DNA of 64,000 nt, from the NCBI RefSeq assembly GCF_014856545.2, contig NZ_CP109811.1, positions 986,001 through 1,050,000 of the forward strand, in the 5' to 3' direction. Source of the stretch: Mesobacillus jeotgali. GTDB taxonomy: Bacteria; Bacillota; Bacilli; Bacillales; Cytobacillaceae. Under the pieces are notes generated by a model. The model saw only the letters and a list, made by a program, of their open reading frames with translations. It was not told the origin of the DNA and ran no database searches. Made by a program: the position numbers and the translations under genes. Below, in pieces: positions 2,404-28,228 of the stretch (positions within the stretch are counted from its first letter, which is position 1; each line of letters opens with the position of its first letter).

Positions 2404-4782
2404 TTATTTTTCAAAAATGCTGTTCGAAAGAAGTCGGAACAGATAATCGGTATGGTCTCTGAAACCAGCTTCAAGGCCGATCATTGTAACGTCCTTATCC
2501 TGTTCTTTCACGATGACTGCCTTGCCCTGTGCTTCACTGTTGTTTTTCCAGTGGCCGGCTACAAAGAAGTCGGAGTTGTCATCGAATGTTGCGGATACTT
2601 CATCGTTATCGGTGTTTTCATACCAGACAGGGCGATAAACAAAACCGAGATCGTCCTCGCTATATCCTCCCGTCACACCTTGGCCGCTGTAATCAACTTT
2701 TGCAATACCATTGCTGCTGTAGCCTGCAACGACAATATCGTCATCAGTAAGTCCCAATGTCTTTGTCGCGAGGGAGGCACCAGCCCCAACTGCGATATAT
2801 TTTCCGCCATTATTTAAAAATTCATCTACATTTGCTTTGAAACTATCAAACTGAGCTGGATTTTGGAATCCGAACTCTTTATTACCCGCGCGTGACTGAG
2901 TTTTGGCAATCAAGCCTTCCGTTCCGCTGTATACGAATACGTCGAAGCTGGAAAGACCTTGTTCTGCAACGTCTGAAGGAGTTACTTCAGTAACGGTGAA
3001 GCCAAGACGTTTCAGAGCGAGTTTTGTACCCGAGTGAGATTGAGCTTTGTTTATGCCGCCATCTTTTAGGATTGCGACCTTTAAGTCCCCAACCTCAACT
3101 GCTTCAGCCGGAACCTTTGTTGATTCAATGTGCAGTCCGGATTGCTTTACCGCTGCTGAAATTACGTTTGCAGCTGATTCTGTGTAAAAATTACCTTCAG
3201 AATCGCGTTTAACTGTAACCCCTTGCTGAAGGAGCGTATTCACCAGGTTAACAGCTTTTACTGAACTGTTCGGGATTAAGAATGGACCTTTACCAATGAC
3301 AGAACCTTGCCCCTGGATTTGGTTCACTTTAGTCGCTGTCACATCAAACTCGCTTTGAACCGCAATCGCCTCGAATCCCCAGAGTTCCGGAAGGCTCCAT
3401 GCTGAGATATCATACATGGCATCAACGTCTTCGGTGATGTCCTCGCCATCCCACAGCATCGTATTGGCTAGGCCAGCCTTTGCCTGGTCCATTTTTACTA
3501 TATATGTGCCTTTTGGGTAAGACTTTCCGTCAGCAGTGAACGCCTTAGAAGCCTGGACGACTTCGATGTCGTTTTTCTGCAGATGATTAACTGCCTTATG
3601 TGTTACGGTTGGATCTTCGGAATCAACAGGCAGCACATAGGCAGTCGGGAAGAAGCCTTCTTCATGGAATGGGTGATCAAAATTGATGCCGCGCTTGAAC
3701 ATCTCAATCTGGTCCTTGATCATTTCCTGCTTGTTATCCGTAGCATTTTTCAATGCGCCCATGATGGCGTCATACATCCAGCGAACGCCGTCTTCATCAT
3801 TTGTTGGCGCTTCAAGTGTGTGGCCGTAAGCACCATGGTACATTGCGTACATCGGAGTGAAGATTGGCGGATAATCATCCCAGCCTTCTGCGTCATCACG
3901 CTGCGGAATGTAGGTTCCTTCCATTGATTGATAGAGGCTGCCTGAGAAGTTTTCCTTGTCGGACATGATTTCATTTTCCATTGCTTTTGCCTGGTTCATT
4001 GCCCATTTTTCATACAAATCATATTCGTAATTAGGATTGTGTGGAACCGTACATGGTTCAATAAGACCCTGCTTGTTCGGTGCATAATTTTTTACATAGC
4101 CATGTGTATCAAGGAAGACCATCGGATTCCATTCCTTGATCAGTGCGACGGTTTCCTGGGTTTCTGGCTGTGACTGGGTGATGAAATCACGGTTCAGGTC
4201 GATTCCTTCACCGTTGAAACGTGTTGCATCAATCCGGCCATCAGGATTCTGGACAACATTGAAAATCAGGATGTTATTTTCGAGGATTTTCTTTGTTGTA
4301 TCGTCATTTTCAAGAGCAAAGCGCTCAATCAGCTGCATGACCGCATCACTGCCGATAAACTCGGTACCATGGATGGATCCATTGATCATGATCGGCACTT
4401 TGAAGTCTGGGTTATTTTCAATCCAGTCCTGTGCCTTGCCAGGGTTCTTGAACATTTGTTTTCTTAATGCCTGAATTTTGCCAAACTTGCCCTGAGAGTC
4501 AGGTGCAGCTATCGTAACGACATAAAGGGGCTGTCCTGTTGATGATTGGCCCTTTACTTCTACCTTCACACGATTGGATTGCTTCTCGATTTGTTCAAGC
4601 TTGTCGCCAATTTCTGAGAATTTCATAAAATCATAGTTTTCACTGTTGAATAAGCTGCCGTCCTTTTCCTCATATGCATTTACATAATTCCACTTGAGTG
4701 ACTCAGCGAGCGCGGGAGTCCATGGCGAGGATGCCAGCAAGCTTGCGGCGACTACACCAGAGATAATCTTTTTATGCTTCAT
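2404..4782 (-). CDS. Secreted M14 zinc carboxypeptidase
   Basis: A 792-residue exported metallopeptidase. A Sec signal peptide is evident (MKHKK, then a hydrophobic run, cleavage likely after TPALA near residue 26). The M14 domain spans roughly residues 50-370: zinc ligands HGTE (H138, E141) and the His of FLDTHGY (H227), substrate-binding DLNRDF (about 195-200) and the catalytic Glu in GHTLEAP (E324). The remaining half (about 380-792) is a long C-terminal extension with an amidotransferase-like segment around VFVYSGTEGLI; its role is unknown. Expected to release C-terminal residues from extracellular peptides. A strong GGAGG ribosome site precedes the ATG. Single-gene unit ending at the shared terminator. 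Substrate is not predictable. Confidence 0.88.
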   Translation of the reverse strand: MKHKKIISGVVAASLLASSPWTPALAESLKWNYVNAYEEKDGSLFNSENYDFMKFSEIGDKLEQIEKQSNRVKVEVKGQSSTGQPLYVVTIAAPDSQGKFGKIQALRKQMFKNPGKAQDWIENNPDFKVPIMINGSIHGTEFIGSDAVMQLIERFALENDDTTKKILENNILIFNVVQNPDGRIDATRFNGEGIDLNRDFITQSQPETQETVALIKEWNPMVFLDTHGYVKNYAPNKQGLIEPCTVPHNPNYEYDLYEKWAMNQAKAMENEIMSDKENFSGSLYQSMEGTYIPQRDDAEGWDDYPPIFTPMYAMYHGAYGHTLEAPTNDEDGVRWMYDAIMGALKNATDNKQEMIKDQIEMFKRGINFDHPFHEEGFFPTAYVLPVDSEDPTVTHKAVNHLQKNDIEVVQASKAFTADGKSYPKGTYIVKMDQAKAGLANTMLWDGEDITEDVDAMYDISAWSLPELWGFEAIAVQSEFDVTATKVNQIQGQGSVIGKGPFLIPNSSVKAVNLVNTLLQQGVTVKRDSEGNFYTESAANVISAAVKQSGLHIESTKVPAEAVEVGDLKVAILKDGGINKAQSHSGTKLALKRLGFTVTEVTPSDVAEQGLSSFDVFVYSGTEGLIAKTQSRAGNKEFGFQNPAQFDSFKANVDEFLNNGGKYIAVGAGASLATKTLGLTDDDIVVAGYSSNGIAKVDYSGQGVTGGYSEDDLGFVYRPVWYENTDNDEVSATFDDNSDFFVAGHWKNNSEAQGKAVIVKEQDKDVTMIGLEAGFRDHTDYLFRLLSNSIFEK

Positions 4783-10668: not shown

Positions 10669-10797
10669 TTCGCTAATAGAATTGTGAACATCGCCAATAA
10701 AATTGTGAACTCCGCCAATTAAGTAATATTTTCGCCAATAAAGTTGTGAACTCCGCTAATAAAATATAATTCGCAGTCAAAATCGCCAATAAATGGA
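10669..10797. repeat. Degenerate 21-bp tandem repeat array (copy A)
   Basis: About six to seven head-to-tail units based on TCGCCAATAAAATTGTGAAC, fresh at 10691 and 10731 and degenerate elsewhere. It fills the sirB-sirC gap and runs up to the sirC ribosome site. The same family occurs at 19443-19563. No unit-spacer alternation, so it is not CRISPR. Confidence 0.85.
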
Positions 10798-14732: not shown

Positions 14733-14989
14733 TCTTTCACCTCCTTTCATAGCGGTATCTATCTTTCCGAAATAGCATTCAGGTTTTTAAACCTCTTTTT
14801 GTCGGTTTTTGAAGGATTTTATAACAAACCGTTCTTTTAACCTAGCACCCTATGAGACATTTATCCTTTATTTTTGGTACTTATTATTCTTGGTGGTAAA
14901 TAATTGGTATTCCTTTCTCTTGCCCTTTTAAAAAAAAGGAGTAGAATGTTAGTTATGCTTTAACCGTTTAAATGAAAGAAGGAAACATC

Positions 14990-15907
14990 ATGAAAAACCT
15001 TAAAATATATTTGATTCTTACCGGTGTCATGTTTTTATGGGGACTGAATGTAACGGCCCTAAAGATTATAGTAGGGAATTTCCCGCCAATCACAATCACT
15101 TCTCTCCGCGTCTTCACGGCTGGAGTTTCGGTGTTTATCATTCTATTTTTCTTGAAAAAAGTACGGATCCCATCAAGGCAGGAGTGGAAATATATATTAG
15201 GCGGGGCAATCCTGAATGTCACTGGCCACCATTTATTCCTTGGCATTGGATTAAAAGTGACATCTGCTGTTAACGGTGGTCTGATCCTCGGTATGGGCCC
15301 ATTGCTGACGGCTTTGATGGCAATTTTATTCCTTGGGAAACGTCTGACATTTGTACGGACACTCGGTTTTATCTTTGGAGGGATTGGCGTCTCGTTGACT
15401 GTGATGGCAGGGAGCACAGGACTGTCAGGCATGTCGATTGGTGATTTTTATGTATTTCTGTCCATATTATCTCAGGCGATCAGCTTCATCATTATTTCAA
15501 AAGCAGCAAAAACTCTGGATCCCCGTCTGCTGACGGGATATATGCTGATTTTCGGCTCAATCCTGATGTTTTTTATCGGACTATGGAAGGAACCAGGTGG
15601 ATTAGCAAGCTTAAGTAATGGTTCCCTTGGAGTGTGGAGCGTGTTTTTCGCTTCAGCAATCTTCGCGACCGCAGTAGGGCATATGCTCTACAATTACGCA
15701 ATTGGCAAAGCCGGACCAGCGGAAGCATCCATTTTCCTGAACTTGAATACATTCCTGTCAATCATGTTCGCAGCCATCTTCCTCGGGGAGCATATTACTT
15801 CTTCTCACCTGCTGGGATTGATTTTCATCGTTTCCGGTGTCATATTCGGATCAGGAGCACTTGAGGAATTGTTGCTGAGAAACAAGATAAAACGGAACGC
15901 AGCTTAA
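14990..15907 (+). CDS. DMT-superfamily permease (EamA type)
   Basis: About 305 residues with ten predicted membrane helices in two EamA repeats (about residues 5-138 and 148-290), the standard ten-helix drug/metabolite transporter layout. The start at 14990 follows AGAAGGAAACATC; the in-frame ATG at 14972 precedes that site. Members export amino acids, nucleotides or drugs, and the substrate cannot be read from sequence. The C-terminal tail is basic (LRNKIKRNAA), consistent with a cytoplasmic end. Monocistronic, followed by a strong terminator. Confidence 0.88.
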   Translation: MKNLKIYLILTGVMFLWGLNVTALKIIVGNFPPITITSLRVFTAGVSVFIILFFLKKVRIPSRQEWKYILGGAILNVTGHHLFLGIGLKVTSAVNGGLILGMGPLLTALMAILFLGKRLTFVRTLGFIFGGIGVSLTVMAGSTGLSGMSIGDFYVFLSILSQAISFIIISKAAKTLDPRLLTGYMLIFGSILMFFIGLWKEPGGLASLSNGSLGVWSVFFASAIFATAVGHMLYNYAIGKAGPAEASIFLNLNTFLSIMFAAIFLGEHITSSHLLGLIFIVSGVIFGSGALEELLLRNKIKRNAA

Positions 15908-15918
15908 TATTGAAGTTA

Positions 15919-15949
15919 AAATGCAGGGCTTATGCTCTGCATTTTTTTT
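15919..15949 (+). terminator. Terminator after the DMT permease
   Basis: AAATGCAGGGC (15919-15929), loop TTAT, GCTCTGCATTT, then a run of T to 15949. One G-U pair in an 11-bp stem. Confidence 0.92.
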
Positions 15950-16105
15950 GCTTGAAGAAATCCTAGGTATTAAAACCCGTCGGGGAATAAATTAGCTTCA
16001 ACGAGGATAAAAATCAATCCAACGGAGATAAAGCATTCAATCTAGTAAAAACTTATTCAAGAAGCAAGTTGCCTGAATCGAAGTCTGCAGCTCAAAGTCT
16101 CCAAG

Positions 16106-16144
16106 TGTCCATTTTTTCATGAACTGTCCTATAACTGGACACTT
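16106..16144 (+). promoter_or_regulatory. Upstream activating dyad for the first sigma-54 promoter
   Basis: A TGTCC copy at 16106-16110, then TGTCC-N7-GGACACTT (16125-16144). The outer AAGTGTCC (16103-16110) is also the exact inverted complement of GGACACTT (16137-16144). The same TGTCC-N7-GGAC core occurs before the second sigma-54 promoter. Likely binding site of the activator encoded at 17171-19219 (inference). Confidence 0.7.
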
Positions 16145-16182
16145 TTCTTTAGTAACCTCTTAATTTTCATGCAAAACAGACC

Positions 16183-16198
16183 TGGCACGATTCTTGCT
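16183..16198 (+). promoter_or_regulatory. Sigma-54 (-24/-12) promoter, SDR gene
   Basis: TGGCACGATTCTTGCT matches the sigma-54 consensus TGGCACN5TTGCW exactly, with GG at -24 and GC at -12. Predicted start near 16209, about 33 bases before the SDR start codon. Confidence 0.92.
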
Positions 16199-16241
16199 TT
16201 ATATAAAACTAACAATTTTATAAAAGTGGAGGTCAAACATA

Positions 16242-17009
16242 ATGAAAATGAGTGAAGTAAGAGCGATTGTTACAGGCGGAGCTTCTGGTTTGGGAGAAGC
16301 AACTGTCAGGAGAATTGTAGAGCAAGGGGGGAAGGCGGCAATCCTTGATTTGTCAGTGGAACGCGGAGATGCTCTCGTTAAAGAACTTGGGGAACAGGCA
16401 ATATTCATTAAAACAGATGTAACAAGTGAAGAAGAAGCAGGGAATGCCATCAACAAAGCAATTGAATCATTGGGATCGATTAACACGGTTGTTAACTGTG
16501 CAGGAATTGGAGTTGCAGGCAAGCTGTTATCACGGAAAGGTGTCCATTCCCTAGACATGTTCTCGAAAGTAATTTCCATCAACTTGATAGGAACCTTCAA
16601 TGTCATCAGGCTTGCTTCGGAACAGATGTCTAAAAACGAAGCGAATGAACTTGGTGAGCGGGGCGTCATCATTAATACAGCATCTGTTGCCGCGTTTGAT
16701 GGCCAAATCGGGCAGGCTGCCTATAGTGCTTCAAAAGGCGGCGTTGTCGGCATGACGCTGCCAATTGCCAGGGAGCTAGCTTCATATGGAATCAGGGTGA
16801 TGACAATTGCACCAGGGCTTTTCCATACGCCGATGTTCGATTCACTCCCAGTGGAAGCCAGGGACTCTCTGGGAAAAATGGTGCCATTTCCGCAGCGTCT
16901 AGGTTATCCCGAGGAATATGCGCTGCTTGCTGAAAGCATCCTGACAAATCCAATGCTGAATGGCGAAACAATACGACTGGACGGAGCCATCCGCATGCAG
17001 CCGAAATAA
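16242..17009 (+). CDS. Short-chain dehydrogenase, 3-hydroxyacyl-CoA dehydrogenase type 2-like
   Basis: A 255-residue classical SDR. The NAD-binding motif [10 protein letters not shown] (about residues 10-19), NNAG-equivalent NCAGIG (about 87), catalytic Ser in [10 protein letters not shown] and YSASK (Tyr and Lys, about 165-169) are all present. Overall sequence ([29 protein letters not shown]) is typical of type 2 3-hydroxyacyl-CoA dehydrogenases, which oxidise 3-hydroxyacyl-CoA, including 2-methyl-branched substrates, in beta-oxidation. A GGAGG site lies upstream. It is driven by its own sigma-54 promoter and ends with a terminator before the activator gene, so it forms a separate transcription unit of the same regulon. 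Confidence 0.9.
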
Positions 17010-17053
17010 TGTCATTGCAACGCATTTATAATTATTAAAGTCATGCACTATTG

Positions 17054-17085
17054 AAACCTGCTCCTCTTCTGGTAGCAGGTTTTTA
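17054..17085 (+). terminator. Terminator after the SDR gene
   Basis: AAACCTGCT (17054-17062) pairs with AGCAGGTTT (17074-17082), followed by T. It separates the SDR unit from the activator gene. Confidence 0.88.
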
Positions 17086-17170
17086 CATTCAATAAGTGTA
17101 CCTTTCCGCAGCAGTGCTATATAATTGAAGTTATAATATTCAGAAATCTCTCAACTTAGGGGGGAAATGA

Positions 17171-19219
17171 ATGATTGAATTCAAGGATATAGTTACGCCT
17201 GTCGACTGCCAGGTCACGGAAAAAACAACATTAAGAGAGGCACTTGGAATTTTCAGAGAGATGAAATGGAATCTTCTGCCCGTTACTGACGCCGAACGGA
17301 ATTTGCAGGGCGTTTTTACCCGGAGTGGGCTTTATCAAATGATCCTGGATGGCAGTCCGCTGGAGGCACCAATCCAGCCATACATAAAGAAGCAAGCAAG
17401 GTCCATCCGTATTGACACCCCTTACCGTGAAATCGAGCAAATTGTTAAAACGAGCAAGGTTGGGACAGGGGTCGTACTTGATGAGCAGGACAAGGTCATC
17501 GGTTTACTGACCAAAACCGAAATGGTGGTCGCTCTGTTAAAATCTGCGAATACACTCAAGGATCAGCTGGAAACGATCCTGCAGCACTCCAATATCGGTG
17601 TGCTCATGACGGACGGCCGGATGAATGTAGTGTATGCAAATGAAGCCTTCGCCAAAATCAGCGGCAGGGCAGTTGATTCAATTGTGTCCAGGAAGATCGG
17701 TGAGATTCTTCCCGGCTTGTTGAAAGAAGAAAATTCACCTCATCATTATGAAAAATTTAAATCGATTTTACATATTTCTTCCTATGAAACAGTGAATCAT
17801 GAGGAAGGGAAGATCCTGTTATTCCAGGATATTTCCGAATTTGAAAAAATGGCAGAAGAGCTGGAGACCGTCAAAAAGCTGAAGCTGACAATCGAGACGA
17901 CGCTCGAGAATGCATATGATGGAATCCTGATGACAGACGAAAGAAACATGATCACGATGGTCAGCCCGCCGCTGCTTGAATTGTTCAACCTGGAAAAAAC
18001 AGAAGTTTTGTATAAACCGGTTGACCAAGTACTTCCGCAGCTGAAGCTTGGCAATGTATTTAGCTCAGAAATGGCGGAGGTCAGCGATTTTCACGAGATA
18101 AACGGAATAAGATATATTGTCCATCGGATACCAATCAAAAAGGATGGCAAGGTGATCGGAGCGATTGGAAAAGTGATGTTCCGCCAGCTGAATGAGGTCA
18201 GCGAGCTGTTCAAGAGGCTTCAGAAGGCGGAGAACAAGGCAAGCTTTTACCACCAGCAGCTGCAGAAATCAGAGTCTGCCAGATTCACGTGGGACCATAT
18301 TTTCAGCGAAGATCCTTATATGGAAAAATTAAAGAAGAGTGCTGCCAAAGCAGCAAAAGGAAGGTCAACTGTCCTGGTCAGGGGAGAAAGCGGTACAGGG
18401 AAAGAGTTATTCGCGCATGCCATCCATAACAGCAGCGCCCGGAGCGAAGGCAAGTTTGTTGTAGTCAATTGTGCCGCAATACCGGAGGACCTGCTCGAAT
18501 CCGAGTTTTTCGGATATGAAGAAGGGGCCTTTACGGGGGCAAAGCAGCGCGGTAAAATCGGGAAGTTTGACCTTGCGAATGGCGGGACGCTTTTCCTCGA
18601 TGAAATCGGCGATATGTCTCTCTCCCTCCAGGCAAAACTATTGAGGGTCCTGCAGGAGCGGGAGTTTTACAGGGTAGGCGGAAATGTCCGGGTAAAGGTC
18701 GATGTCCGTATTATCGCGGCGACAAATCGCAACCTGGAAGAAATGGTGAAGCAGGGGGAGTTCAGGGAAGACCTTTATTATCGTCTTAACGTCATATCTT
18801 TGAATATTCCGCCGCTAAGGGAACGTGTTCATGATGTCGAGTATTTGATCGGCGGTTTAATGAAAGAATTGAATTCGATGCTGGGCACGAGCATCACAGG
18901 TATCTCTTCACAGGCAAAGACCGCCCTGCTGCGCTATGAATGGCCGGGCAATGTCAGGGAACTGCGGAATGTCCTGGAACGCGCGATGACCTTTGCCGAG
19001 CATGGGAAAATTCAGGCTGAGGACTTGCCGGATTATCTAATCTCGCAGCTATCCAGCCCGCTCGGCGAACAAATCAGCCTTGCAGAAGATGCCGAGCTCG
19101 GAGCCATCAGAAAAGCGCTCTCCCAGACGAACGGAAACAAAGCAAAGGCAGCAAGACTCTTAGGCATCAGCCGCTCAGGCCTTTATGAAAAAATAAAGAA
19201 ATATCAGCTGAGCGTATAG
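17171..19219 (+). CDS. Sigma-54-dependent activator with CBS pair, two PAS domains, AAA+ and Fis HTH
   Basis: A 682-residue enhancer-binding protein. Order: two CBS motifs (about residues 1-125), PAS (about 130-215), linker coiled coil, second PAS (about 240-345), AAA+ domain (about 375-610) and a C-terminal Fis-type helix-turn-helix (about 640-682, TNGNKAKAARLLGISRSGLY). The AAA+ core is intact: Walker A GESGTGKE, the sigma-54-contacting GAFTGA loop, Walker B LFLDEIGD and the arginine-finger region. CBS pairs often bind adenylate or CoA-type ligands, so sensing of acyl-CoA metabolism is a reasonable inference. It sits between two sigma-54 promoters sharing one dyad, so it most likely controls both. 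Ribosome site AGGGGGG. No sigma-54 promoter was seen for this gene itself. Confidence 0.94.
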   Translation: MIEFKDIVTPVDCQVTEKTTLREALGIFREMKWNLLPVTDAERNLQGVFTRSGLYQMILDGSPLEAPIQPYIKKQARSIRIDTPYREIEQIVKTSKVGTGVVLDEQDKVIGLLTKTEMVVALLKSANTLKDQLETILQHSNIGVLMTDGRMNVVYANEAFAKISGRAVDSIVSRKIGEILPGLLKEENSPHHYEKFKSILHISSYETVNHEEGKILLFQDISEFEKMAEELETVKKLKLTIETTLENAYDGILMTDERNMITMVSPPLLELFNLEKTEVLYKPVDQVLPQLKLGNVFSSEMAEVSDFHEINGIRYIVHRIPIKKDGKVIGAIGKVMFRQLNEVSELFKRLQKAENKASFYHQQLQKSESARFTWDHIFSEDPYMEKLKKSAAKAAKGRSTVLVRGESGTGKELFAHAIHNSSARSEGKFVVVNCAAIPEDLLESEFFGYEEGAFTGAKQRGKIGKFDLANGGTLFLDEIGDMSLSLQAKLLRVLQEREFYRVGGNVRVKVDVRIIAATNRNLEEMVKQGEFREDLYYRLNVISLNIPPLRERVHDVEYLIGGLMKELNSMLGTSITGISSQAKTALLRYEWPGNVRELRNVLERAMTFAEHGKIQAEDLPDYLISQLSSPLGEQISLAEDAELGAIRKALSQTNGNKAKAARLLGISRSGLYEKIKKYQLSV

Positions 19220-19227
19220 GAGGCTCT

Positions 19228-19383
19228 ATGTATTCTAAAAAATACTGGCTATTGATGCCGCCTTTCTTTTTGTTTGGACTGCTGCTTTTCGCCGTATTAA
19301 GGCCATTTATATTTTGGGTGCCCCTGATTTTCTGGGCGGTATATTATGGGTGGGGTAAGCGAAATCGAAAAAATAAAGATTAG
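19228..19383 (+). CDS. Small hydrophobic protein downstream of the activator
   Basis: A 51-residue ORF starting 8 bases after the activator stop, with a perfect AGGAGG ribosome site. Two hydrophobic stretches (about residues 6-23 and 26-41, rich in F, L, W, P) suggest a small two-helix membrane hairpin with a basic tail (GKRNRKNK). It is translationally linked to the activator gene. I do not recognise a family. It may be a membrane anchor or regulator of the activator, but that is speculation. Confidence 0.6.
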   Translation: MYSKKYWLLMPPFFLFGLLLFAVLRPFIFWVPLIFWAVYYGWGKRNRKNKD

Positions 19384-19409
19384 TCTAGTAGATTTGCACA
19401 TAGCTTTTT

Positions 19410-19446
19410 GCGAACTGGAAAAAACACGTGTTTTTTTCCAGTTCGC
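19410..19446. terminator. Long hairpin after the activator operon
   Basis: GCGAACTGGAAAAAA pairs with TTTTTTTCCAGTTCGC around CACGTG. The T-run lies inside the stem arm. It may terminate the activator transcript; the right arm merges with the first unit of the following repeat array. Confidence 0.6.
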
Positions 19447-19563
19447 CAATAAATCTTGGATATCGCCAATAAAGTCGTGAAAATCGCCAATAAAATCTTA
19501 ATATCGCCAATAAAGTTGTGAACTCCGCCAATAAAATTGTGAAAACCGCTAATAAATCTAAAA
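19443..19563. repeat. 20-21-bp tandem repeat array (copy B)
   Basis: Six head-to-tail units starting TCGCCAATAAA, the best being TCGCCAATAAAGTTGTGAAC. Same family as 10669-10797, 8.8 kb away. It precedes the second sigma-54 promoter region. Confidence 0.88.
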
Positions 19564-19688
19564 TGCCTTCAGTCATCACACATTAAGTACTAGAACTACC
19601 CAGTACAATGCTGAAACGAGCAATAAGACGAGATTTTCCTCGAATATTTTTGTTTTTTATTCGTCCAGTAACACCCTTCTATTTAAAT

Positions 19689-19720
19689 GTCCAAATACAG
19701 TGTCCAATTTTCGGACGCTT
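19689..19720 (+). promoter_or_regulatory. Upstream activating dyad for the second sigma-54 promoter
   Basis: TGTCC at 19689-19693, then TGTCC-AATTTTC-GGACGCTT (19701-19720), the same TGTCC-N7-GGAC core as at 16125-16144. Dyad centre is about 98 bases upstream of the predicted start, against 76 for the first promoter; the 22-base difference is about two helical turns. Confidence 0.7.
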
Positions 19721-19780
19721 TGCAAGGCATAGATGCTTATTTCTGCTTGGTTGTTACTGTCTTTTCCGTTTTCGGAAAAT

Positions 19781-19796
19781 TGGCATAATTATTGCA
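19781..19796 (+). promoter_or_regulatory. Sigma-54 (-24/-12) promoter, acyl-CoA degradation operon
   Basis: TGGCATAATTATTGCA: GG and GC elements at consensus 10-base spacing, one deviation (T for C at position 6). Predicted start near 19807, 39 bases before the first start codon. Confidence 0.85.
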
Positions 19797-19806
19797 TATA
19801 AAATGA

Positions 19807-19820
19807 TGAAGGCGTTTTCA
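19807..19820 (+). promoter_or_regulatory. cre-like site at the sigma-54 start
   Basis: TGAAGGCGTTTTCA, one mismatch from the CcpA consensus TGWAANCGNTNWCA, beginning at the predicted +1. Glucose repression of the fatty-acid operon by CcpA is inferred. Confidence 0.5.
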
Positions 19821-19845
19821 AATTTAACCAGGGGGGAAGTTCTGT

Positions 19846-21368
19846 ATGGATATCGGTTCATATTTAGCGCAAAATGCAAGGAAAACACCGGAGAAGCTCG
19901 CGATTCAATGTGAAGGCAGGAGCTATACATACAAGGAGTTTAATGAGGAAGTGAACAAGTTTGCCCACGGTCTGCTCAGCCTGGGGGTTAACAAAGGCGA
20001 TCGGATTGCTTTAATGATGAAAAACTCTGATCAGTTTGTATTTGCTTTTTTTGCTGGAGCTAAAATTGGTGCGATAATCGTGCCGGTGAATTTCCGCCTG
20101 ACAGCATCCGAGGTCCATTACATACTGGAACAGTCTGGCGCTGTGCTGGTTATTTGCGATGATGAGTTCGAGGATATCATCACTTCTGCGCGTGAAGGGA
20201 CAGATACAGCGCATGTCATCACGACTGGAACCCCTAAAGCAGTTGGACATCATTCATTTCATAATGTCCTTTCCAAAAATGCCGATGATCCACAAATTGA
20301 AGTCAGCGATGATGATGACCTTGAAATCTTATATACGTCGGGGACAACCGGCAGGCCCAAGGGTGCCCTGTTTGACCATAAACGAGTATTCAATGTCGGC
20401 CTGACGATGATGATCAGCATGGGCATTAACCAGGAGGAACGGATCCTCCATATTGCTCCGCTATTCCATTCGGCACAGCTTAATCTATTCCTGGTATCAG
20501 GGGTCGTTCTTGGGGCAACCCATATCATCCATCGGGATTTTCATCCGGTTACAACGCTTGAAGCAATCCGGCAGCATAAAATCACCCACTTTTTTGGAGT
20601 CCCGGCGATGTACAACTTTATGCTGCAGGTGCCGAATGCTTCTGATTATGACCTAACTTCGATCAAAAGATGCGGCTATGGCGCTGCACCAATGGCTCCG
20701 GAACTCGTCCGCAAAAGCATGGAGCTTTTTAGGACAGACCAGTTTTACAATCTATGCGGGCTGACTGAAGCGGGACCTGGCGGCATATTGCTGGATCCGG
20801 AAGGGCATAAGCACCACTTTGGAAAGGGAGGGAAAGCTGCGTTCCTGACCGAAGCGAGAGTGGTGGATGAAGAAGGCAAGGATATCAAGCCTGGTGCAGT
20901 CGGTGAATTCATCATCAAAGGTGAATCCATTATGAAGGAATATTATAAGAAGCCGGAAGAAACGGCAAAGACAATCAAAAGCGGCTGGCTTTATACCGGA
21001 GACCTGGCAACGGTTGATGAAAACGGATATATCACCCTCGTTGACCGGAAAAAAGACATGATCATTCCGGCGGGGAAAATGTGTACTCCATTGAAGTAGA
21101 GGAAGTCCTTTATGAACATCCTGCGGTTATCGAGGCAGCAATCATCGGTCTGCCGGATGAAGTCTGGGGAGAAGCCGTCTGCGCCGTCATCGTGCCAAAG
21201 CAGAATGCAATAGTTGATGAGCAGGAGCTTAAGAGCTTTTGCCGCGAAAAACTTGCAGGCTATAAAGTTCCAAGAAAGATCTTCATCGAAGAGGCATTGC
21301 CGAGGAATGCCTCTGGAAAAATACTAAAATACCAGCTTCGCCAGAAATTGAATGAAGTGAAGCTTTAA
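19846..21368 (+). pseudogene. Acyl-CoA synthetase (AMP-forming), interrupted by a single-base frameshift
   Basis: First gene of the operon; it would encode about 507 residues of an AMP-forming acyl-CoA ligase. The first 410 or so residues are normal: the P-loop-like YTSGTTGRPKG (about 166-176), GYGAAPM and TGDLATVDENGYITLVDR. At 21072-21075 the frame changes: frame one ends shortly after (stop at 21097-21099), while the frame beginning near 21078 continues perfectly (YSIEVEEVLYEHPAVIEAAI ... LPRNASGKILKYQLRQKL). Adding one G to the GGGG run restores the family motif PAGENVYSIEVEEVL. So either a one-base deletion or an assembly error. If real, the C-terminal lid with its catalytic Lys (ASGKIL) is lost. 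Ribosome site is GGGGGGAAG. Confidence 0.9.
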
Positions 21369-21396
21369 TAGTTTGAGTGAAAGGGGAGTTTAATTT

Positions 21397-22542
21397 ATGA
21401 AGCATCCTTATTTAACGGATGACCATGAAATTTTTCGCAGGTCACTGAGGAAGTTTTTAGAGAAGGAGGCATATCCATTTTACGAACAGTGGGAGGAAGA
21501 GCGAATGATTCCGCGATCCTTCTGGGAGAAAATGGGCGAGCAGGGCTATCTCTGTCCTGATATCGATGAAGAATACGGGGGCAGTGAAGTCGACTGGGGA
21601 TTTGCAGTTGTCATCAATGAAGAGCTTGAGCGGGTGGGCTCAGGCCTGGTTGGTGTAGGTTTGCATAATGACATCGTGGTTCCTTATATCACTGCTTATG
21701 GAACAGAGGAGCAGAAAAAACGCTGGCTGCCAAAATGTACGACTGGAGAAATTATCACGGCGATTGCAATGACAGAGCCAGGGACAGGGTCAGATCTGGC
21801 AAACATACAGACAACAGCAATCCTGGATGGCGACCACTATATTTTAAATGGGCAAAAGACATTCATCACCAACGGAATCCAGTCTGATTTGATTGTCGTA
21901 GCCTGCAAAACCGACCCAAAGGCGAATCCCAAGCATAAAGGTGTCAGCCTGCTAGTCGTTGAGCGGGATACACCAGGTTTTTCCCGAGGGAGGAAGCTGA
22001 ATAAGGTGGGGCTGCACTGTCAGGATACGGCAGAGCTTATCTTCGAAGATTGCCGAGTTCCAAAGGAAAATCTGCTGGGTGAGGAAGGGAAGGGCTTCCT
22101 TTATCTAATGGAAAAGCTCCAGCAGGAACGACTGCTTGTTGCGATTGCCGCCCAGACGGCATCCGAGGTCATGCTGAAGCAGACAATCGAGTATGTAAAA
22201 AGCCGTGAAGCATTTGGCAAACCGGTCAGCAAGTTCCAGAATACGCAATTCAAGATTGTCGAGATGGCGACAGAAATCGAAATGGGCAGAGCTTTCCTTG
22301 ACCAGCTGATTGCCGAGCATATTGAAGGCAAGGATGTTGTCACAAAGGTATCGATGGCGAAGTGGAAGCTGACAGACAGCGCGAGGAAAATCGCTGCAGA
22401 ATGCATGCAGCTCCACGGTGGCTATGGATACATGGAAGAATACGAGATTGCGAGAAGGTTCCGTGATATCCCGGTTGCCAGCATCTATGCCGGAACAAAC
22501 GAAATCATGAAAACCATCATTGCAAAAAACCTGGGATTGTAA
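21397..22542 (+). CDS. Acyl-CoA dehydrogenase
   Basis: A 381-residue flavoenzyme that introduces the alpha,beta double bond in acyl-CoA. Typical signatures are present: AMTEPGTGSDLANIQT (FAD/substrate contact, about 128-143), the central NGQKTFITNG segment, and LHGGYGYMEEYEIARRFRD plus YAGTNEIMKTII near the C terminus, where the Glu of GTNEI aligns with the catalytic base of short/medium-chain enzymes. Ribosome site AAAGGGGAG. Second gene of the sigma-54 operon, 28 bases after the synthetase. Electrons would pass to an electron-transfer flavoprotein encoded elsewhere. Chain specificity is not predictable. Confidence 0.94.
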   Translation: MKHPYLTDDHEIFRRSLRKFLEKEAYPFYEQWEEERMIPRSFWEKMGEQGYLCPDIDEEYGGSEVDWGFAVVINEELERVGSGLVGVGLHNDIVVPYITAYGTEEQKKRWLPKCTTGEIITAIAMTEPGTGSDLANIQTTAILDGDHYILNGQKTFITNGIQSDLIVVACKTDPKANPKHKGVSLLVVERDTPGFSRGRKLNKVGLHCQDTAELIFEDCRVPKENLLGEEGKGFLYLMEKLQQERLLVAIAAQTASEVMLKQTIEYVKSREAFGKPVSKFQNTQFKIVEMATEIEMGRAFLDQLIAEHIEGKDVVTKVSMAKWKLTDSARKIAAECMQLHGGYGYMEEYEIARRFRDIPVASIYAGTNEIMKTIIAKNLGL

Positions 22543-22572
22543 AAAGTAAGATTTTCAGAAAGGAAGATGAAC

Positions 22573-23727
22573 ATGCGTGAAGTCGTAATCGTTGAAGCTG
22601 TCAGGACGCCTGTCGGCAGAAGAAAAGGGTTATTGAAGGATATCAGGCCGGATGAGCTGGCTGCAGGGGTTTTAAAAGAGGTTGTGAAGCGGGCCGGAAT
22701 CGATGCAGGACTTGTTGAAGATGTCATCCTCGGTTGTGTAACACAGTCAGGAGAACAGGCTGGTGATATTGCAAGGGTAGCGGCTTTGACAGCCGGTTTC
22801 CCAATTGAAGTACCGGGAACAACGATTGACCGTCAATGCGGATCGAGCCAGCAGGCAGTCCATTTTGCGGCCCAGGCAATCCTTGCAGGGGACATGGATG
22901 TCGTCATTGCCGGCGGCGTTGAGAATATGACACGTGTTCCGATGGGCTCCAATTACCAGGAAGCCAACCCTTTCAGCCCTAAACTAAGAGAGCAATACGA
23001 GATGATCCATCAGGGTCTATCCGCAGAACGGATTGCGGAGAAATACGGTTTTACCCGCCGGGAACTTGATGAATTTTCTGCTGAAAGCCATCGCCGGGCT
23101 TTGAAGGCGCAGGCAGAGGGTTATTTTAAAAAAGAAATCATGCCGCTCGAGGTCACCCTCGAAAATGGTGAAACAACTTTGGTGACGGAAGATTCAGGTC
23201 CTCGCGAAGGAACGACACCTGAAGTTTTGGCCGGGTTGAAAACGGTCTTTAAAGAAGACGGTGTCATCCATGCCGGGAACTCGAGCCAGATCAGTGACGG
23301 AGCAGGTGCCATATTGTTGATGAGCCGTGAAAAAGCTGAAGAGTTAGGCTTAAAGCCGCGCTTTAAGGTTCACACCAGGGTTGTGGTAGGGTCAGATCCG
23401 ACGCTGATGCTGACAGGACCGATTCCGGCAACGGAAAAAGTCCTCAAAAAAGCCGGCCTGAAGCTGGAGGATATTGATGTCTTCGAGGTAAACGAAGCAT
23501 TTGCTCCTGTACCGATGGCATGGCTGAAAGAAACGGGAGCAGATCCTGCAAAACTTAATCCGAATGGCGGAGCAATCGCGCTAGGCCATCCTCTTGGAGC
23601 GAGCGGCGCCCGCCTGATGATTTCAATGATGTCCGAACTTGAGAGGAGCGGCGGACGCTACGGCCTGCAGACAATGTGCGAAGGGCACGGCATGGCAAAC
23701 GCCACTATTATCGAACGTCTAGATTAA
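22573..23727 (+). CDS. Acetyl-CoA acyltransferase (thiolase)
   Basis: About 384 residues; cleaves 3-ketoacyl-CoA with CoA in the last beta-oxidation step. Catalytic residues visible: the nucleophilic Cys in DRQCGSSQQAVHFA (about residue 88), the GGVENMTR motif, the His in ALGHPLGASGARL and the second Cys in QTMCEGHGMANATI. In the last motif CEGHG replaces the more common CIGGG, a variant seen in several acyl-CoA thiolases. I chose the ATG at 22573 because AAGGA lies eight bases upstream; the ATG at 22567 is too close to it. Third gene of the operon. Confidence 0.93.
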   Translation: MREVVIVEAVRTPVGRRKGLLKDIRPDELAAGVLKEVVKRAGIDAGLVEDVILGCVTQSGEQAGDIARVAALTAGFPIEVPGTTIDRQCGSSQQAVHFAAQAILAGDMDVVIAGGVENMTRVPMGSNYQEANPFSPKLREQYEMIHQGLSAERIAEKYGFTRRELDEFSAESHRRALKAQAEGYFKKEIMPLEVTLENGETTLVTEDSGPREGTTPEVLAGLKTVFKEDGVIHAGNSSQISDGAGAILLMSREKAEELGLKPRFKVHTRVVVGSDPTLMLTGPIPATEKVLKKAGLKLEDIDVFEVNEAFAPVPMAWLKETGADPAKLNPNGGAIALGHPLGASGARLMISMMSELERSGGRYGLQTMCEGHGMANATIIERLD

Positions 23728-23732
23728 GAACC

Positions 23733-23845
23733 TTCTATTGGCGCCCAATAAGCTCCCAAATCGGAAAAAGAGGTAACCAATAGGTCTTATTGGTGCCCGA
23801 AAATAGCAAAAGTGAGAAAAAAAGGTCATCAATAGGTCTACTATA
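23733..23845. repeat. Two-unit direct repeat with internal hairpin
   Basis: Two related units of about 52 bases, each beginning CTATTGG/TTATTGG(C/T)GCCC and ending CAATAGGTC. ACCAATA (23776-23782) and TATTGGT (23788-23794) form a perfect hairpin at the junction. Sits between the thiolase and the second synthetase. Confidence 0.75.
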
Positions 23846-23896
23846 TACAGCTACTCTGTAAAGCATAAAATCGACATTTTATTAGGAGGAATGCAA

Positions 23897-25468
23897 ATGA
23901 GCACGACGATCGGCAAAATTTTTGACCTAACGGTAATGAAATTCCCGAACAAGGAAGCCCTCTATGATGTCCGCAAAAATGTCCGCTTTACTTATAGTGA
24001 ATGGAATGATGAAGTGAACAGGCTTGCCAACGCGCTCCTTGCTGAAGGAGTGAAGAAAGGCGACCGAGTTTCTACGTTCACTTTTAATACCGAGGAGTTG
24101 GGTACGGCGTTTTTCGCCTGTGCGAAAATTGGTGCAGTCTTCAATCCAACCAATTTCAGGCTGATGGGAGAGGAGGTCGCTTTTATCCTGAGCGATGCCG
24201 AGCCGAAGGTCGTCCTCTTTGAAAAAGCGGTTGAGCCAGTCATCGCGGCCATTGAAAAGCGATTCCCGCATATCGCTTTCTGGTATATCGACGAAGATAC
24301 GCCAGAGTATGCCCAGAGCTATCATGAAAAAGTGAAAGCTGCGGAAACGAAGCCAGTTGAGATTGAAGTAGACGAAAATGATCTGTACGCGATTATGTAC
24401 ACAAGCGGGACAACGGGCAGGCCAAAAGGCGTTATGCACAAGCACCGCAATATGGTCGAGCAGAGTCTCATCGTTGTCGGTTCAACCAAACTGGGTGCAA
24501 ATGATAAAGGTCTGGTAACTGCACCAATGTTCCACTGTGCCGAGCTCCATTGCGCATTCCTGCCAAGAATCCATGTGGGCGGGAGCAATGTCATTCTCCA
24601 TCAATTCGCTCCAAAGAAAGTGCTGGAGCTGATTGATTCTGAAAAAATCACGAAGTTCTTCGCGGCTCCTACGATGTGGAATATGCTTCTTCAGGAGAAC
24701 CTGGACGACTATAAGATCGAAAGTCTGAAACTGGGACTGTACGGAGCTGCCCCTATGGCGCCGTCGCTTGTCCATGCCTGCCATGACAAGCTGGGCATCA
24801 AGCTCGTCCAGGCTTATGGAATGACAGAAATGGGTCCTGCAATCACTTTCCTTTCCGAGGATGACCAGCTGACAAAAGCAGGTGCGGCAGGCCAGGCTTG
24901 CCTTAACCATGAAATCAGGATTGTCCGGCCGAACGAGGATGGTCCGTCTGACCCCGAAGACGTCCTTCCGCCAGACGAAAGCGGTGAAATCATCGTTCAG
25001 GGTCCATGCATGATGTCTGGCTACTTCAACCGTGCAGAGGCTTCCGAAAAAGCGATGCATAAGGGTTGGTATCATTCAGGGGATATCGGCTACCTGGATG
25101 AAGAGGGATATCTCTGGGTCAAGGACAGGGTGGATGACATGATCATCAGCGGGGGTGAAAATATTTATCCGCGTGAGGTAGAAGATGTGCTCCATGCCCA
25201 TGAGGGTGTGCTTGACGTTGCGATAGTCGGCCAGCCGGATGACCGCTGGGGCGAAACGGTGACAGCTTTTGTCGTTAAAAAAGATTCAAAGGTAACAGAA
25301 GAGGAATTGGATGAATGGTGCAAAAACAGCGACAGCCTGGCAAATTACAAACGCCCGCGCAAATACCTCTTTGTGGATGCACTTCCTAGGAATGCGAGCG
25401 GGAAAATCCAGAAATTCATGCTCAGAAAGCAAATGGAAGAATTGTTTTCAAAAGGGCAGCCGACGTAA
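23897..25468 (+). CDS. Long-chain acyl-CoA synthetase (second copy)
   Basis: About 523 residues, AMP-forming acyl-CoA ligase: YTSGTTGRPKG (about 174-184), YGAAPMAPSLV, QAYGMTEMGP, the YHSGDIGYLDEEGYLWVKDR hinge and the C-terminal catalytic Lys in NASGKIQKFMLRKQ are all intact. It activates a fatty or related carboxylic acid with ATP and CoA. I chose the ATG at 23897 because AGGAGG is seven bases away; the ATG at 23891 touches that site. It is only moderately similar to the first and third synthetases of the operon, so the three are probably specialised for different acids. Confidence 0.93.
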   Translation: MSTTIGKIFDLTVMKFPNKEALYDVRKNVRFTYSEWNDEVNRLANALLAEGVKKGDRVSTFTFNTEELGTAFFACAKIGAVFNPTNFRLMGEEVAFILSDAEPKVVLFEKAVEPVIAAIEKRFPHIAFWYIDEDTPEYAQSYHEKVKAAETKPVEIEVDENDLYAIMYTSGTTGRPKGVMHKHRNMVEQSLIVVGSTKLGANDKGLVTAPMFHCAELHCAFLPRIHVGGSNVILHQFAPKKVLELIDSEKITKFFAAPTMWNMLLQENLDDYKIESLKLGLYGAAPMAPSLVHACHDKLGIKLVQAYGMTEMGPAITFLSEDDQLTKAGAAGQACLNHEIRIVRPNEDGPSDPEDVLPPDESGEIIVQGPCMMSGYFNRAEASEKAMHKGWYHSGDIGYLDEEGYLWVKDRVDDMIISGGENIYPREVEDVLHAHEGVLDVAIVGQPDDRWGETVTAFVVKKDSKVTEEELDEWCKNSDSLANYKRPRKYLFVDALPRNASGKIQKFMLRKQMEELFSKGQPT

Positions 25469-25486
25469 TGGAAAGGGTTTTTTAAC

Positions 25487-26572
25487 ATGTTAGATGGTAT
25501 TAAAATAGTAGACTTCACCAATTATATCCCCGGACCTTTTGCGACTCTGAGATTAGCAGAGCTTGGGGCTGAGGTTGTCAAAGTCGAAGCGCCGGAGGGA
25601 GACCCCGCAAGGAATACAGGGCAAGGATATGTATTTAACGCCCATAACCGCGGCAAGAAGAGTATCGTCATCAACCTGAAGCAGCCAGAAGGCAAGATGC
25701 TGGCCCTTGACCTGCTGGCCAAGGCCGATGTAGTTGTTGAGAGCTTCAGGCCGGGAGTGATGGATAAGCTTGGACTTGGTTATGAAGCGGTGAAAAAGGT
25801 CAACTTAGGAATCGTCTATTGCTCGGTGACAGGTTACGGCAGGGACGGAGAGATGAGCAGCCTGGGCAGCCATGATCTTAATTATATGAGCTTGAGCGGC
25901 GCTTTGGCCCAGATGAAGGACGATAAAGGAAGACCGGTTCATCCAACCCATACCTTTTCTGATTATATCGGGGGAATGGCGGCCAGTGAAAGGATCCTTG
26001 CTGCTCTTGTAGCCAGGGGGAAAACCGGTGAGGGGAGCTATCACTGCATTTCCATTGCTGACAGCATGGCAGCCTTGATGGCAAACCATGTCCTGATTGA
26101 AAAAGAAACAGGTTATCCTAATGGCGTTTCCGTTCTAAACGGCACCGTCATTGGATATTGGCTATACGAAACGAAGGACGGCCGCTATGTCAGCCTTGGG
26201 GCACTCGAGTCAAAGTTCTGGCGCAATTTTTGCCAGGCTGTCGGACGGGAGGATTGGCTCTCGGCGCATTATTCCAGGCCGGAAAACACTAATCCTGTAT
26301 ACATCGAGCTTGTTGACCTGTTTAAAAGCAAGTCGCTCTCACAGTGGGCGGATTTCGGCATGAAGGTCGACTGCTGCCTTACACCTGTACTTGAGGCGGG
26401 AGAACTGGCTCACTATCCATATTGGAGAGAAAAGAATTTTGTATTGCCAGAAGGCCAGATTAAAATGCATGGAGATAGGCCATCGCAAACAGAAGCAGCG
26501 CCGCCAAAAAAAGGAGAACAGACTGATGAGATTTTGCAAGATTGGCTCAGTATAAAAAGCAGTAAATACTAG
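25487..26572 (+). CDS. Family III CoA-transferase (CaiB/BaiF) or alpha-methylacyl-CoA racemase
   Basis: A 361-residue member of the CaiB/BaiF family. The N-terminal LDGIKIVDFTNYIPGPFATL, AELGAEVVKVEAPEGDPAR, NRGKKSIVINLK and VVESFRPGVMDKLGLGY segments are typical. SLGSHDLNYMSLSGAL contains the conserved HD pair; the Asp is the catalytic residue in transferases and, together with His, in racemases. In this setting an alpha-methylacyl-CoA racemase would let methyl-branched chains enter beta-oxidation, and a CoA-transferase would be an ATP-free way to activate acids; sequence alone does not decide. Start 19 bases after the synthetase stop. Fifth gene of the operon. Confidence 0.9.
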   Translation: MLDGIKIVDFTNYIPGPFATLRLAELGAEVVKVEAPEGDPARNTGQGYVFNAHNRGKKSIVINLKQPEGKMLALDLLAKADVVVESFRPGVMDKLGLGYEAVKKVNLGIVYCSVTGYGRDGEMSSLGSHDLNYMSLSGALAQMKDDKGRPVHPTHTFSDYIGGMAASERILAALVARGKTGEGSYHCISIADSMAALMANHVLIEKETGYPNGVSVLNGTVIGYWLYETKDGRYVSLGALESKFWRNFCQAVGREDWLSAHYSRPENTNPVYIELVDLFKSKSLSQWADFGMKVDCCLTPVLEAGELAHYPYWREKNFVLPEGQIKMHGDRPSQTEAAPPKKGEQTDEILQDWLSIKSSKY

Positions 26573-26608
26573 AGTCCTATTTTAAAAAGCGGAAGGAGAA
26601 ATGTCGGT

Positions 26609-28228
26609 ATGATGAATGTTCCATTAACAGTAGGATCGCTATTGGAAAGAGCAGAAAAATTTTTCCCGAAAAAGCAGGTGGTGTCACGAACACTATCAGG
26701 TATTCACCGGTTCACTTACAAGGAGATAGGCGAGAGGACCCGCAGGCTTGCCAGTGCGCTTGAAAAGCTGGGTGTGGAAAAGGGAGACAGGGTCGGCACA
26801 TTCGCCTGGAATCATCATCGCCATCTTGAAGTCTACTTTGCTGCTCCGGGAATGGGGGCAGTTCTTCATACAATCAATATCCGCCTGTCGCCAGAACATG
26901 TCTCCTACATTATCAATCATGCAGAAGATAAAGTTTTGCTTGTCGATGAGGACCTGGTGCCGCTGATTGAGCGTAGCAAGGACCAATTTAGAACAGTAGA
27001 GGCATACATCATCATGACCGACAAGGATGAACTGCCGGAAACAACTTTGGAGCCAGTCTATTCCTATGAAACGCTTCTCCGCGAGGGCAGTCCGGATTTT
27101 GAATTCGTGAAGGATCTTGATGAGAATGCTCCGGCAGGGATGTGCTACACATCTGCAACCACTGGCAATCCAAAGGGGGTTGTATACTCCCATCGAGGCA
27201 TAGTGCTCCACAGCTACGCTTTTGGGTTGGCAGATACTGCTGCGTTATCCGAAACAGATGTCGTCCTCCCGGTAGTGCCAATGTTCCATGCCAATGCCTG
27301 GGGCATGCCATTCGCTGCGACATGGTTCGGCTCGACCCAGGTGCTGCCTGGCCCGCTGTTCACACCTAAGCTGCTTGCTGAACTTATTGAACAGGAAAAG
27401 GTCACCTTCACCGCAGGAGTGCCGACGATTTGGCTAGGCCTGCTGAATGAGCTTGAAAATGGAAGCTATGATACCTCTTCACTTAGATCGATTGTCTGTG
27501 GCGGTTCCGCGGCACCGCGAGGCATGATCAAGGCGTTTGAAACAAAATATAAGATTCCATTCCTGCATGCATACGGCATGACAGAGACCACTCCGCTGGC
27601 AACAGTATCACGTCTGAAGAGCTATCAGGTCGGCTTGGACGAAGATGAAATTTTAGATATCCGCTCAAAGCAAGGACTCCTTGTACCTGGGCTTGAAATG
27701 AAAGTCATCGGCGGAAATGGCGAAGTGAAGTGGGATGGAGAGGAAATGGGAGAACTATTGCTGCGCGGACCATGGATTGCCGATGAATATTATAAGGATG
27801 AGCGTTCGGCAGATGCATTCCGCGATGGCTGGCTATACACCGGGGATGTAGCCACTGTTGATGAAGAGGGTGTCATCAAGCTGGTCGACCGCACAAAGGA
27901 TCTGATCAAGAGCGGCGGCGAATGGATTTCATCGGTCGACCTTGAGAATGCCTTGATGGCTCACGAGGCTGTATTCGAGGCGAGTGTTGTCGCAGTTCCT
28001 CATCAGCAATGGCAGGAACGACCGGTTGCCTGCGTTGTACTGAAGGAACAATATAGAGGCAAGGTCGATAAGCAGGAAATTCTCGAATTCATCGCCCCGC
28101 AGTTCGCCAAGTGGTGGCTGCCAGATGATGTTGTATTCATGGAGGAGATCCCTAAGACATCAGTAGGGAAGTTCCTCAAACGCGCACTAAGGGACCAGTT
28201 AAAGGATCATCTCGTGCAGAATTCTTGA
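26609..28228 (+). CDS. Long-chain acyl-CoA synthetase (third copy)
   Basis: A 539-residue AMP-forming ligase. Motifs: [18 protein letters not shown] (with Ala for Gly in TSGTTG), [49 protein letters not shown] and the catalytic Lys in [15 protein letters not shown]. The sequence is closest in style to the medium/long-chain FadD3/AlkK-like group ([19 protein letters not shown]). It ends the operon and is followed by a terminator. A GGAGAAATG ribosome site precedes two adjacent ATGs (26609 and, one codon on, 26612). Confidence 0.93.

Follow-up and report, generated by a model that had tools for sequence, protein, structure and literature searches.

The region considered here is a 64,000-nucleotide stretch of the genome of Mesobacillus jeotgali, a soil bacterium (contig NZ_CP109811.1, positions 986,001 to 1,050,000 of the forward strand), hereafter the window, in which the gene for a sigma-54 activator lies between two sigma-54 promoters, P1 and P2, each preceded by a copy of the same short palindrome, which is assessed here as a candidate operator of that activator (Table 1). 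P1 stands before a gene for a short-chain dehydrogenase/reductase (SDR), and P2 before a series of genes for acyl-CoA metabolism, which we infer to be co-transcribed from their orientation and spacing.

The initial annotation placed 20-bp dyads at positions 16125-16144 (TGTCCTATAACTGGACACTT) and 19701-19720 (TGTCCAATTTTCGGACGCTT), and both are found there; the -24/-12 elements assigned to them are the only perfect matches to TGGCAYN5TTGCW in the window. The dyad centres proposed for them, about -76 and -98, are reproduced when transcription is assumed to start 12 nucleotides after the C of the -12 element. The motif originally given, TGTCC-N7-GGAC(A/G)CTT, stands as a symmetric 17-bp core, TGTCC-N7-GGACR, whereas its CTT tail varies among relatives, and the AAG...CTT arms were left out of the operator because they mainly accompany T-runs and resemble a terminator stem. 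The extra TGTCC copy noted upstream of each dyad is likewise present in the window, but is mainly a feature of Mesobacillus and Rossellomorea, and these half-sites were dropped as a general part of the operator since they are conserved only locally. The core has the geometry of upstream activating sequences (UAS) of the type TGT-N10-12-ACA, being TGT-N11-ACA at P1 and TGT-N11-ACG at P2 in the window, and this geometry is kept in relatives. A scan of the window at three mismatches gives 32 matches against 22.2 +/- 5.1 in shuffled sequence, a number reached by 5 of 100 shuffles, which is weak evidence. A one-mismatch dyad (TGTCCATTCCCTAGACA, 16541-16557) also lies within the SDR coding sequence.

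Table 1. Features of the locus and of related loci; coordinates are window positions unless a locus (L number) is named.
Feature	Position	Strand	Basis or remark
P1 operator core TGTCCTATAACTGGACA	16125..16141	+	Predicted; conservation in text
P2 operator core TGTCCAATTTTCGGACG	19701..19717	+	Predicted; conservation in text
P1 -24/-12 element TGGCACGATTCTTGCT	16183..16198	+	Consensus scan
P2 -24/-12 element TGGCATAATTATTGCA	19781..19796	+	Consensus scan
Extra TGTCC half-site 5' of P1 dyad, offset 19	16106..16110	+	Offset 19-21 in 12/27 P1 promoters with dyad
Extra TGTCC half-site 5' of P2 dyad, offset 13	19688..19692	+	Offset 12-14 in 15/36 P2 promoters with dyad
SDR, nearest to type-II 3-hydroxyacyl-CoA dehydrogenase (HSD10 type)	16242..17009	+	PDB matches 4o5o (4.9e-90) and 1u7t (8e-89)
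Terminator-like hairpin AACCTGCT/AGCAGGTT, loop 11, T-run, between SDR and activator	17055..17084	+	By eye
Sigma-54 activator, CBS-PAS-PAS-AAA+-lid-HTH	17171..19219	+	Profile searches, PDB matches, structure model
Predicted target operon: acyl-CoA ligase, acyl-CoA dehydrogenase, thiolase, ligase, CoA-transferase III, ligase	19846..28228	+	
Palindrome as terminator-like hairpin with T-run, L036	12082-12105		
Palindrome as terminator-like hairpin with T-run, L040	12082-12105		
Palindrome as terminator-like hairpin with T-run, L037	12041-12065		
Palindrome as terminator-like hairpin with T-run, L052	12001-12025		

The activator encoded between the two promoters is the only strong one in the window, as first annotated, and one of five in the 4.84-Mb genome (Sigma54_activat, E below 1e-60); four weaker matches elsewhere in the genome (E 6e-11 to 2.5e-7) also lie above the Pfam cut-off. 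Its domains comprise a CBS pair (residues about 1-120), two PAS domains (140-221 and 250-338), an AAA+ domain (378-544; PF00158, 1.3e-73) with its lid (550-627) and a C-terminal Fis-type helix-turn-helix (HTH; 639-678; PF02954, 2.2e-14). Pfam reports one CBS, one PAS, the AAA+, the lid and the Fis HTH, to which PDB sequence matches add the CBS pair (2yzi, residues 15-123) and a CitA-type PAS (5fq1, 242-333). An AlphaFold model built on a 20-row alignment has a mean predicted local distance difference test score (pLDDT) of 66.7 and a predicted template-modelling score of 0.29, and is usable only for the CBS pair (1-120) and the PAS folds (140-221 and 250-338), where the pLDDT is mostly 70-91; its AAA+ part is poor. 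Among the 20 aligned activators the CBS motif residues T50-R51 and T114-K115 are invariant and the GAFTGA loop is present in 18, the window's included; the sigma-54-contacting loop reads GSFTGA in L045 and L046. A structural match to AcuB (9s4z, with AMP and ADP), at a root-mean-square deviation of 8.1, is only a lead towards an adenylate ligand. The orthologues in L045-L052 are shorter, and the five of them that were aligned (L045, L046, L047, L049 and L051) lack the first PAS domain only; since full-length kin adjoin both groups, we infer that this domain was lost at least twice. The operator is unchanged in the loci concerned, and the first PAS is therefore unneeded for site choice. The best NCBIfam model for the activator is PrdR (NF041552), at 507.5 bits against a curated cut-off of 795, and membership of that family was rejected on this score and because the match appears generic, three other tested activators of the same genome scoring 412-458. 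Identity with BkdR was also rejected, as the activator linked to the phosphate butyryltransferase gene (ptb) is another gene of the same genome. That ptb-adjacent activator (L123, 1042-3332) seems to comprise two adjacent frames (391 and 398 amino acids) and is possibly split.

A search with the activator protein returned 33 loci, comprising 32 with a full-length match on Bacillota-type contigs, one of them labelled Chryseobacterium yet 93% identical, and L053, from a distant gamma-proteobacterial metagenome-assembled genome. Most of the 32 retain the genes in the sequence SDR, activator, ligase, dehydrogenase, thiolase, ligase, CoA transferase, ligase, and several Sutcliffiella-type loci have no SDR near the activator. 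From these loci and those given by the activator search in the 397 genomes of the order a non-redundant set of 32 SDR (P1) and 39 ligase (P2) promoters was drawn, lacking a few promoters identical to pattern-pulled ones, duplicates having been removed in file order. Had the dyad been absent upstream of orthologous operons, the reading of it as an operator would have failed; the core, with a spacer of 7, at most one mismatch and a place within 140 bp of the -24/-12 element, is instead found at 26 of the 32 P1 promoters (16 perfect) and 35 of the 39 P2 promoters (30 perfect). Shuffled sequences give 0.21 in 71, and spacers of 3 to 6 and of 8 to 12 give 0-2 each. The two dyads might be taken for a recent duplication or a chance pair, being similar 20-mers only 3.6 kb apart; this is already refuted, and keeps a negligible probability, since the N7, the flanks and the distances differ between copies and the P1 and P2 dyads are both conserved across genera.

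The association extends to SDR genes that have moved away from the activator. The SDR was sought in 16 genomes, most of them selected because it does not adjoin the activator there, and 15 of them have it: eight copies at a distance of about 14-15 kb from the activator, one each at about 5 and 8 kb, one next to it and one on another contig. The remaining three (L189-L191), 66-67% identical, are on other contigs or at a distance of about 1 Mb. All 12 loci other than L189-L191 have a perfect -24/-12 element and TGT-N11-ACA, at 45-48 bp in eleven and 56 bp in one. Of the 15 loci, eight match the core with at most two mismatches and four with at most one; several carry the symmetric variant TGTACAGATTCCGTACA, and the copy on another contig retains TGT-N11-ACA with three mismatches to the core. 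As variants have either CC/GG or AC/GT inside, TGT-N11-ACA is the most constant part of the operator. In L043, the SDR gene lies some 7 kb upstream of the activator and has a perfect dyad at 58 bp.

Pattern scans made independently of the activator protein lead to the same genes. A dyad followed after 30-60 bp by a promoter occurs in 15 of 193 genomes of the family (no control hits), after 57-87 bp in 25 of 397 genomes of the order (one control hit) and after 26-56 bp in 12 of the 397. The first two scans yielded 41 sites, the window's two included, 38 of them at SDR, ligase or activator orthologues, and all 15 sites of the third lie at SDR or ligase genes; among the exceptions L119 has no activator and is probably a chance match. 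Of the 397 genomes sampled from the order, 54 carry the activator (E up to 1e-150), and strict sites occur in 30 of these 54 against 2 of the 343 genomes without it (Fisher 5e-28).

Within the window's own genome, perfect matches to the strict pattern TGTCCN7GGACRCTT are found at two places, both at the sigma-54 promoters flanking the activator gene. The relaxed pattern TGTCCN7GGACR has eight places, and its 9 counts against 33 for the reversed control (both strands) make it rarer than the control; the dyad is thus not enriched genome-wide, and its significance rests on position and conservation. The six other places lie inside open frames of 102 to 549 codons, five of them with no sigma-54-like site (at most two mismatches) within 200 bp in either direction and the sixth (L174) with a two-mismatch site 182 bp on. 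The perfect -24/-12 consensus has 25 matches in the genome against 4 for the reversed control, and for each of the four other strong activators such a promoter follows the AAA+ match at a distance of up to about 2 kb. The genes at these promoters are phosphate butyryltransferase, beside a BkdR-like activator, a lysine 2,3-aminomutase family gene and, at the third, an open reading frame (ORF) that we take to be a GntP-type permease, for which NCBIfam gave no match at 1e-30; the activator at the fourth has an N-terminus resembling a response regulator. None of the other 23 perfect -24/-12 matches has a core dyad with fewer than two mismatches within 250 bp, and the window's two promoters have 0 and 1 mismatches to TGTCCN7GGACA. 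A genome scan at two mismatches was uninformative, the matches listed being dominated by chance hits and by an unrelated short repeat, AGCCCTTCTATCGGACACTT, which recurs in this genome, often at a spacing of 52 bp (e.g. 193881, 1253819, 1977625 and 3435878).

The distance between dyad and promoter provides a further line of evidence. It was measured from the start of the dyad to the TGG of the -24 element in a set for which 147 promoter regions were taken and 86 kept, after those with less than 130 bp upstream or with an identical last 100 bp had been dropped; two of the 147 (P2 of L157 and L158) have no -24/-12 element within 200 bp of the gene. The 147 comprise only regions whose SDR or ligase match reached 55% identity and began close to the N-terminus, so that L118 and L152, for example, are outside them. 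In 62 upstream clusters the distances fall at 46-48, 57-59, 67-70, 77-81, 87-89 and 98-102 bp, with none between, forming a ladder with rungs near 47, 58, 68, 79, 88 and 100 bp and operator centres at about -64 to -120 relative to the start. The best period is 10.5 bp (R = 0.84), which none of 20,000 uniform draws equalled, and 25 hand-picked lineages give R = 0.82. Outside this set, L104 (91), L118 (109 and 80) and L157 (110 and 80) lie within 1.5 bp of the ladder. On a quick tree of the activator (53 rows) there are at least 5 rung changes at P1 and at least 10 at P2, and all 64 values remain within 2.5 bp of the ladder 47.5 + 10.5k, for which p is about 1e-5 to 2e-4 given 15 free changes. 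The claim that both dyads occupy the same face of the DNA, weak when drawn from two sites, is thus borne out by a 10.5-bp ladder across lineages.

A number of observations weigh against reading the dyad as the operator of this activator. No core with at most one mismatch lies within 145 bp at P1 of L037, L039, L041, L049 and L146 or at P2 of L149, L153 and L156, and L041 and L049 (P1) and L156 (P2) have none even at two mismatches within 420 bp. At P1 of L023 the core is perfect but no nearer than 250 bp. L152 (P2) and L158, whose promoters fall outside the gene rule, show no dyad within 140 bp. At the three distant SDR genes (L189-L191) both the perfect promoter and the dyad are missing. The dyad also adjoins two other activators, L094 (beside a gene that is presumably an acetoin dehydrogenase) and L104 (on the opposite strand), and is hence not exclusive to the family. 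As regards the ladder, the 62 clusters include pattern-pulled loci and many close relatives and are not independent, its origin was fitted on the same data, and the two distant copies, L153 at 179 bp and L023 at 250 bp, are off it by -5 and +3 bp. These two cases, the only ones of their kind, fit a need for phase that fades with loop length.

Some of the promoters without a core within 140 bp have a related dyad close by or further out. At P2 there is a one-mismatch dyad at 143 bp in L148, a symmetric TGTCT/AGACA at 102 bp in L149 and a perfect dyad at 179 bp in L153, while L157, outside the set, has its dyads at 110 and 80 bp. P1 of L148 carries three overlapping TGT-type dyads 11 bp apart (101, 90 and 79 bp before the TGG). 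In L023 (M. selenatarsenatis SF-1) about 190 bp of repeat-like DNA seems to part an intact dyad from the promoter (region about 3300-3556), and four overlapping 20-mers of this DNA recur in the window at 54169.

A palindrome between genes may also act as RNA, and the dyad could in principle be an intrinsic terminator for the gene before it that lies close to sigma-54 promoters only incidentally. The nine bases after the P2 dyad include 5-8 T in the loci of Sutcliffiella type and those of Peribacillus, Neobacillus and Fictibacillus, and 5-7 in L024, L033 and L043, which are nearer to the window. The three such outer-lineage copies that were folded are stable (L036 -13.7, L037 -9.9 and L052 -15.5 kcal/mol; z -4.9 to -5.9), and the dyad begins 4 nucleotides past the activator's stop codon in L037, a distance that varies among loci up to 957 in L051, and contains that stop codon in the Peribacillus loci L036 and L040. 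Against this, the two copies in the window give weak folds (z -2.0 and -1.6), and that at P2 starts 482 nucleotides past the stop. The P1 copy in L030 and L031 follows a gene on the opposite strand, the arms mostly stay TGTCC/GGAC, with some symmetric variants, rather than drift by paired changes, and a terminator gives no reason for a 10.5-bp phase to the downstream promoter. We therefore hold it highly improbable that the dyad is a terminator and nothing else, and read the terminator as laid over the operator in the outer lineages rather than as an alternative to it. It is conceivable, if rather unlikely, that one palindrome does two jobs, serving as DNA as the helix-phased operator and as RNA, in the outer Bacillales, to end the activator transcript, in which case binding of the activator might act back on how its own gene is terminated or insulated. 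If this were true, the whole-turn ladder would offer a natural set of spacings from which the stiffness of DNA in short loops of sigma-54 activation could be measured.

Other features of the locus are of a more local nature. The hairpin between the SDR and activator genes is unlisted by the terminator scanner, whose loops are limited to at most 8. The first acyl-CoA ligase is split in the window into overlapping frames (19846-21099 and 21081-21368; 417 and 95 amino acids), whereas relatives carry it intact at about 508 amino acids, and the split could reflect either a genuine lesion or an error in the sequencing. Between the activator and P2 lie about 5.5 copies of a 21-bp unit, TCGCCAATAAAATCGTGAAAA (19443-19556), and runs of CGCCAATAAA are found 3' of the activator in several Mesobacillus-type loci and also elsewhere, as at 10692-10784 of the window. 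Some relatives have an ORF of 608 amino acids between the SDR and activator genes, which was dropped as a pathway enzyme on account of the LysM and FlgD_ig domains in the tested copy (L022).

Taken as a whole, the sequence comparisons indicate that TGTCC-N7-GGACR is very probably the UAS of the CBS-PAS-PAS activator, acting from a fixed DNA face on P1 and P2, and the candidate operator and regulon proposed in the initial annotation gain support from conservation, co-occurrence and the spacing ladder. Fis-type HTH dimers of the activator would bind the core, and the AAA+ domain would reach sigma-54 RNA polymerase via a short loop on that face, presumably in a sigL-dependent manner. Opening of P1 would yield the type-II 3-hydroxyacyl-CoA dehydrogenase and opening of P2 the acyl-CoA ligases, acyl-CoA dehydrogenase, thiolase and CoA transferase; more speculatively, the CBS pair may read an adenylate or acyl-CoA signal tied to the AMP-forming ligases. 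The geometry of the dyad would suit any HTH dimer, and the site might belong to another DNA-binding protein, such as a pathway repressor, co-evolving with the operon. This we consider highly improbable, as the site tracks the activator among genomes, the nine window proteins scanned (14972 to 28228) include no other regulator, the relatives' extra genes having been scanned in part, and a phase-lock to the -24/-12 element together with the TGT-N11-ACA geometry is Fis-type activator usage (PMC6615313).

A UAS of the type TGT-N10-12-ACA is used by NifA, FhlA and 15 Clostridiales activator groups, PrdR among them (PMC6615313), and the dyad, as a TGT-N11-ACA sequence, belongs to this known kind. 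It shares with those sites the TGT and ACA ends, an 11-bp spacer, a place 5' of the -24/-12 element and a target that usually adjoins the activator gene; here, in contrast, the inner CC/GG is usually kept, the target is an acyl-CoA operon and most operators begin 46-102 bp 5' of the -24 element, as against 100-250 bp for most sites in that study (PMC6615313). The arrangement of an activator gene between two sigma-54 promoters that are its presumed targets has a SoxR-type counterpart in Bacillus thuringiensis, where none of the 8 activators is described with a CBS domain (PMC4428206). BkdR is likewise a PAS-containing activator of the Bacillales, with two PAS/PAC domains in B. thuringiensis (PMC4428206). 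In the present genome, by contrast, a separate activator adjoins phosphate butyryltransferase, and its promoter lacks the dyad. The BkdR pathway is a branched-chain acyl pathway. For the Bacilli, a 2025 survey lists acyl-CoA synthetases among the enriched sigma-54 targets (PMC12316311). A literature search, with most subscription papers outside its reach, found no publication on the activator. The kind of UAS is therefore known, and the operator, the regulon and the spacing ladder are new facts.

To our knowledge, the need of closely bound sigma-54 activators for a fixed helix face has so far been known mainly from engineered promoters. According to a review, NtrC sites ought to stand 70 bp or more from the start, and activation dependent on the face of the helix was found at an NtrC-regulated promoter with two sites (PMC7408454). 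Phasing matters in both cases, the difference being that it was established there by experiment and is read here from natural indels in many lineages. The ladder is in this respect an unusually clean natural record that a close-bound sigma-54 activator must keep a fixed helix face, and the activator, found in 54 of the 397 genomes, gains a candidate operator, a pair of target promoters and an acyl-CoA regulon of acid-degrading genes that can be tested.

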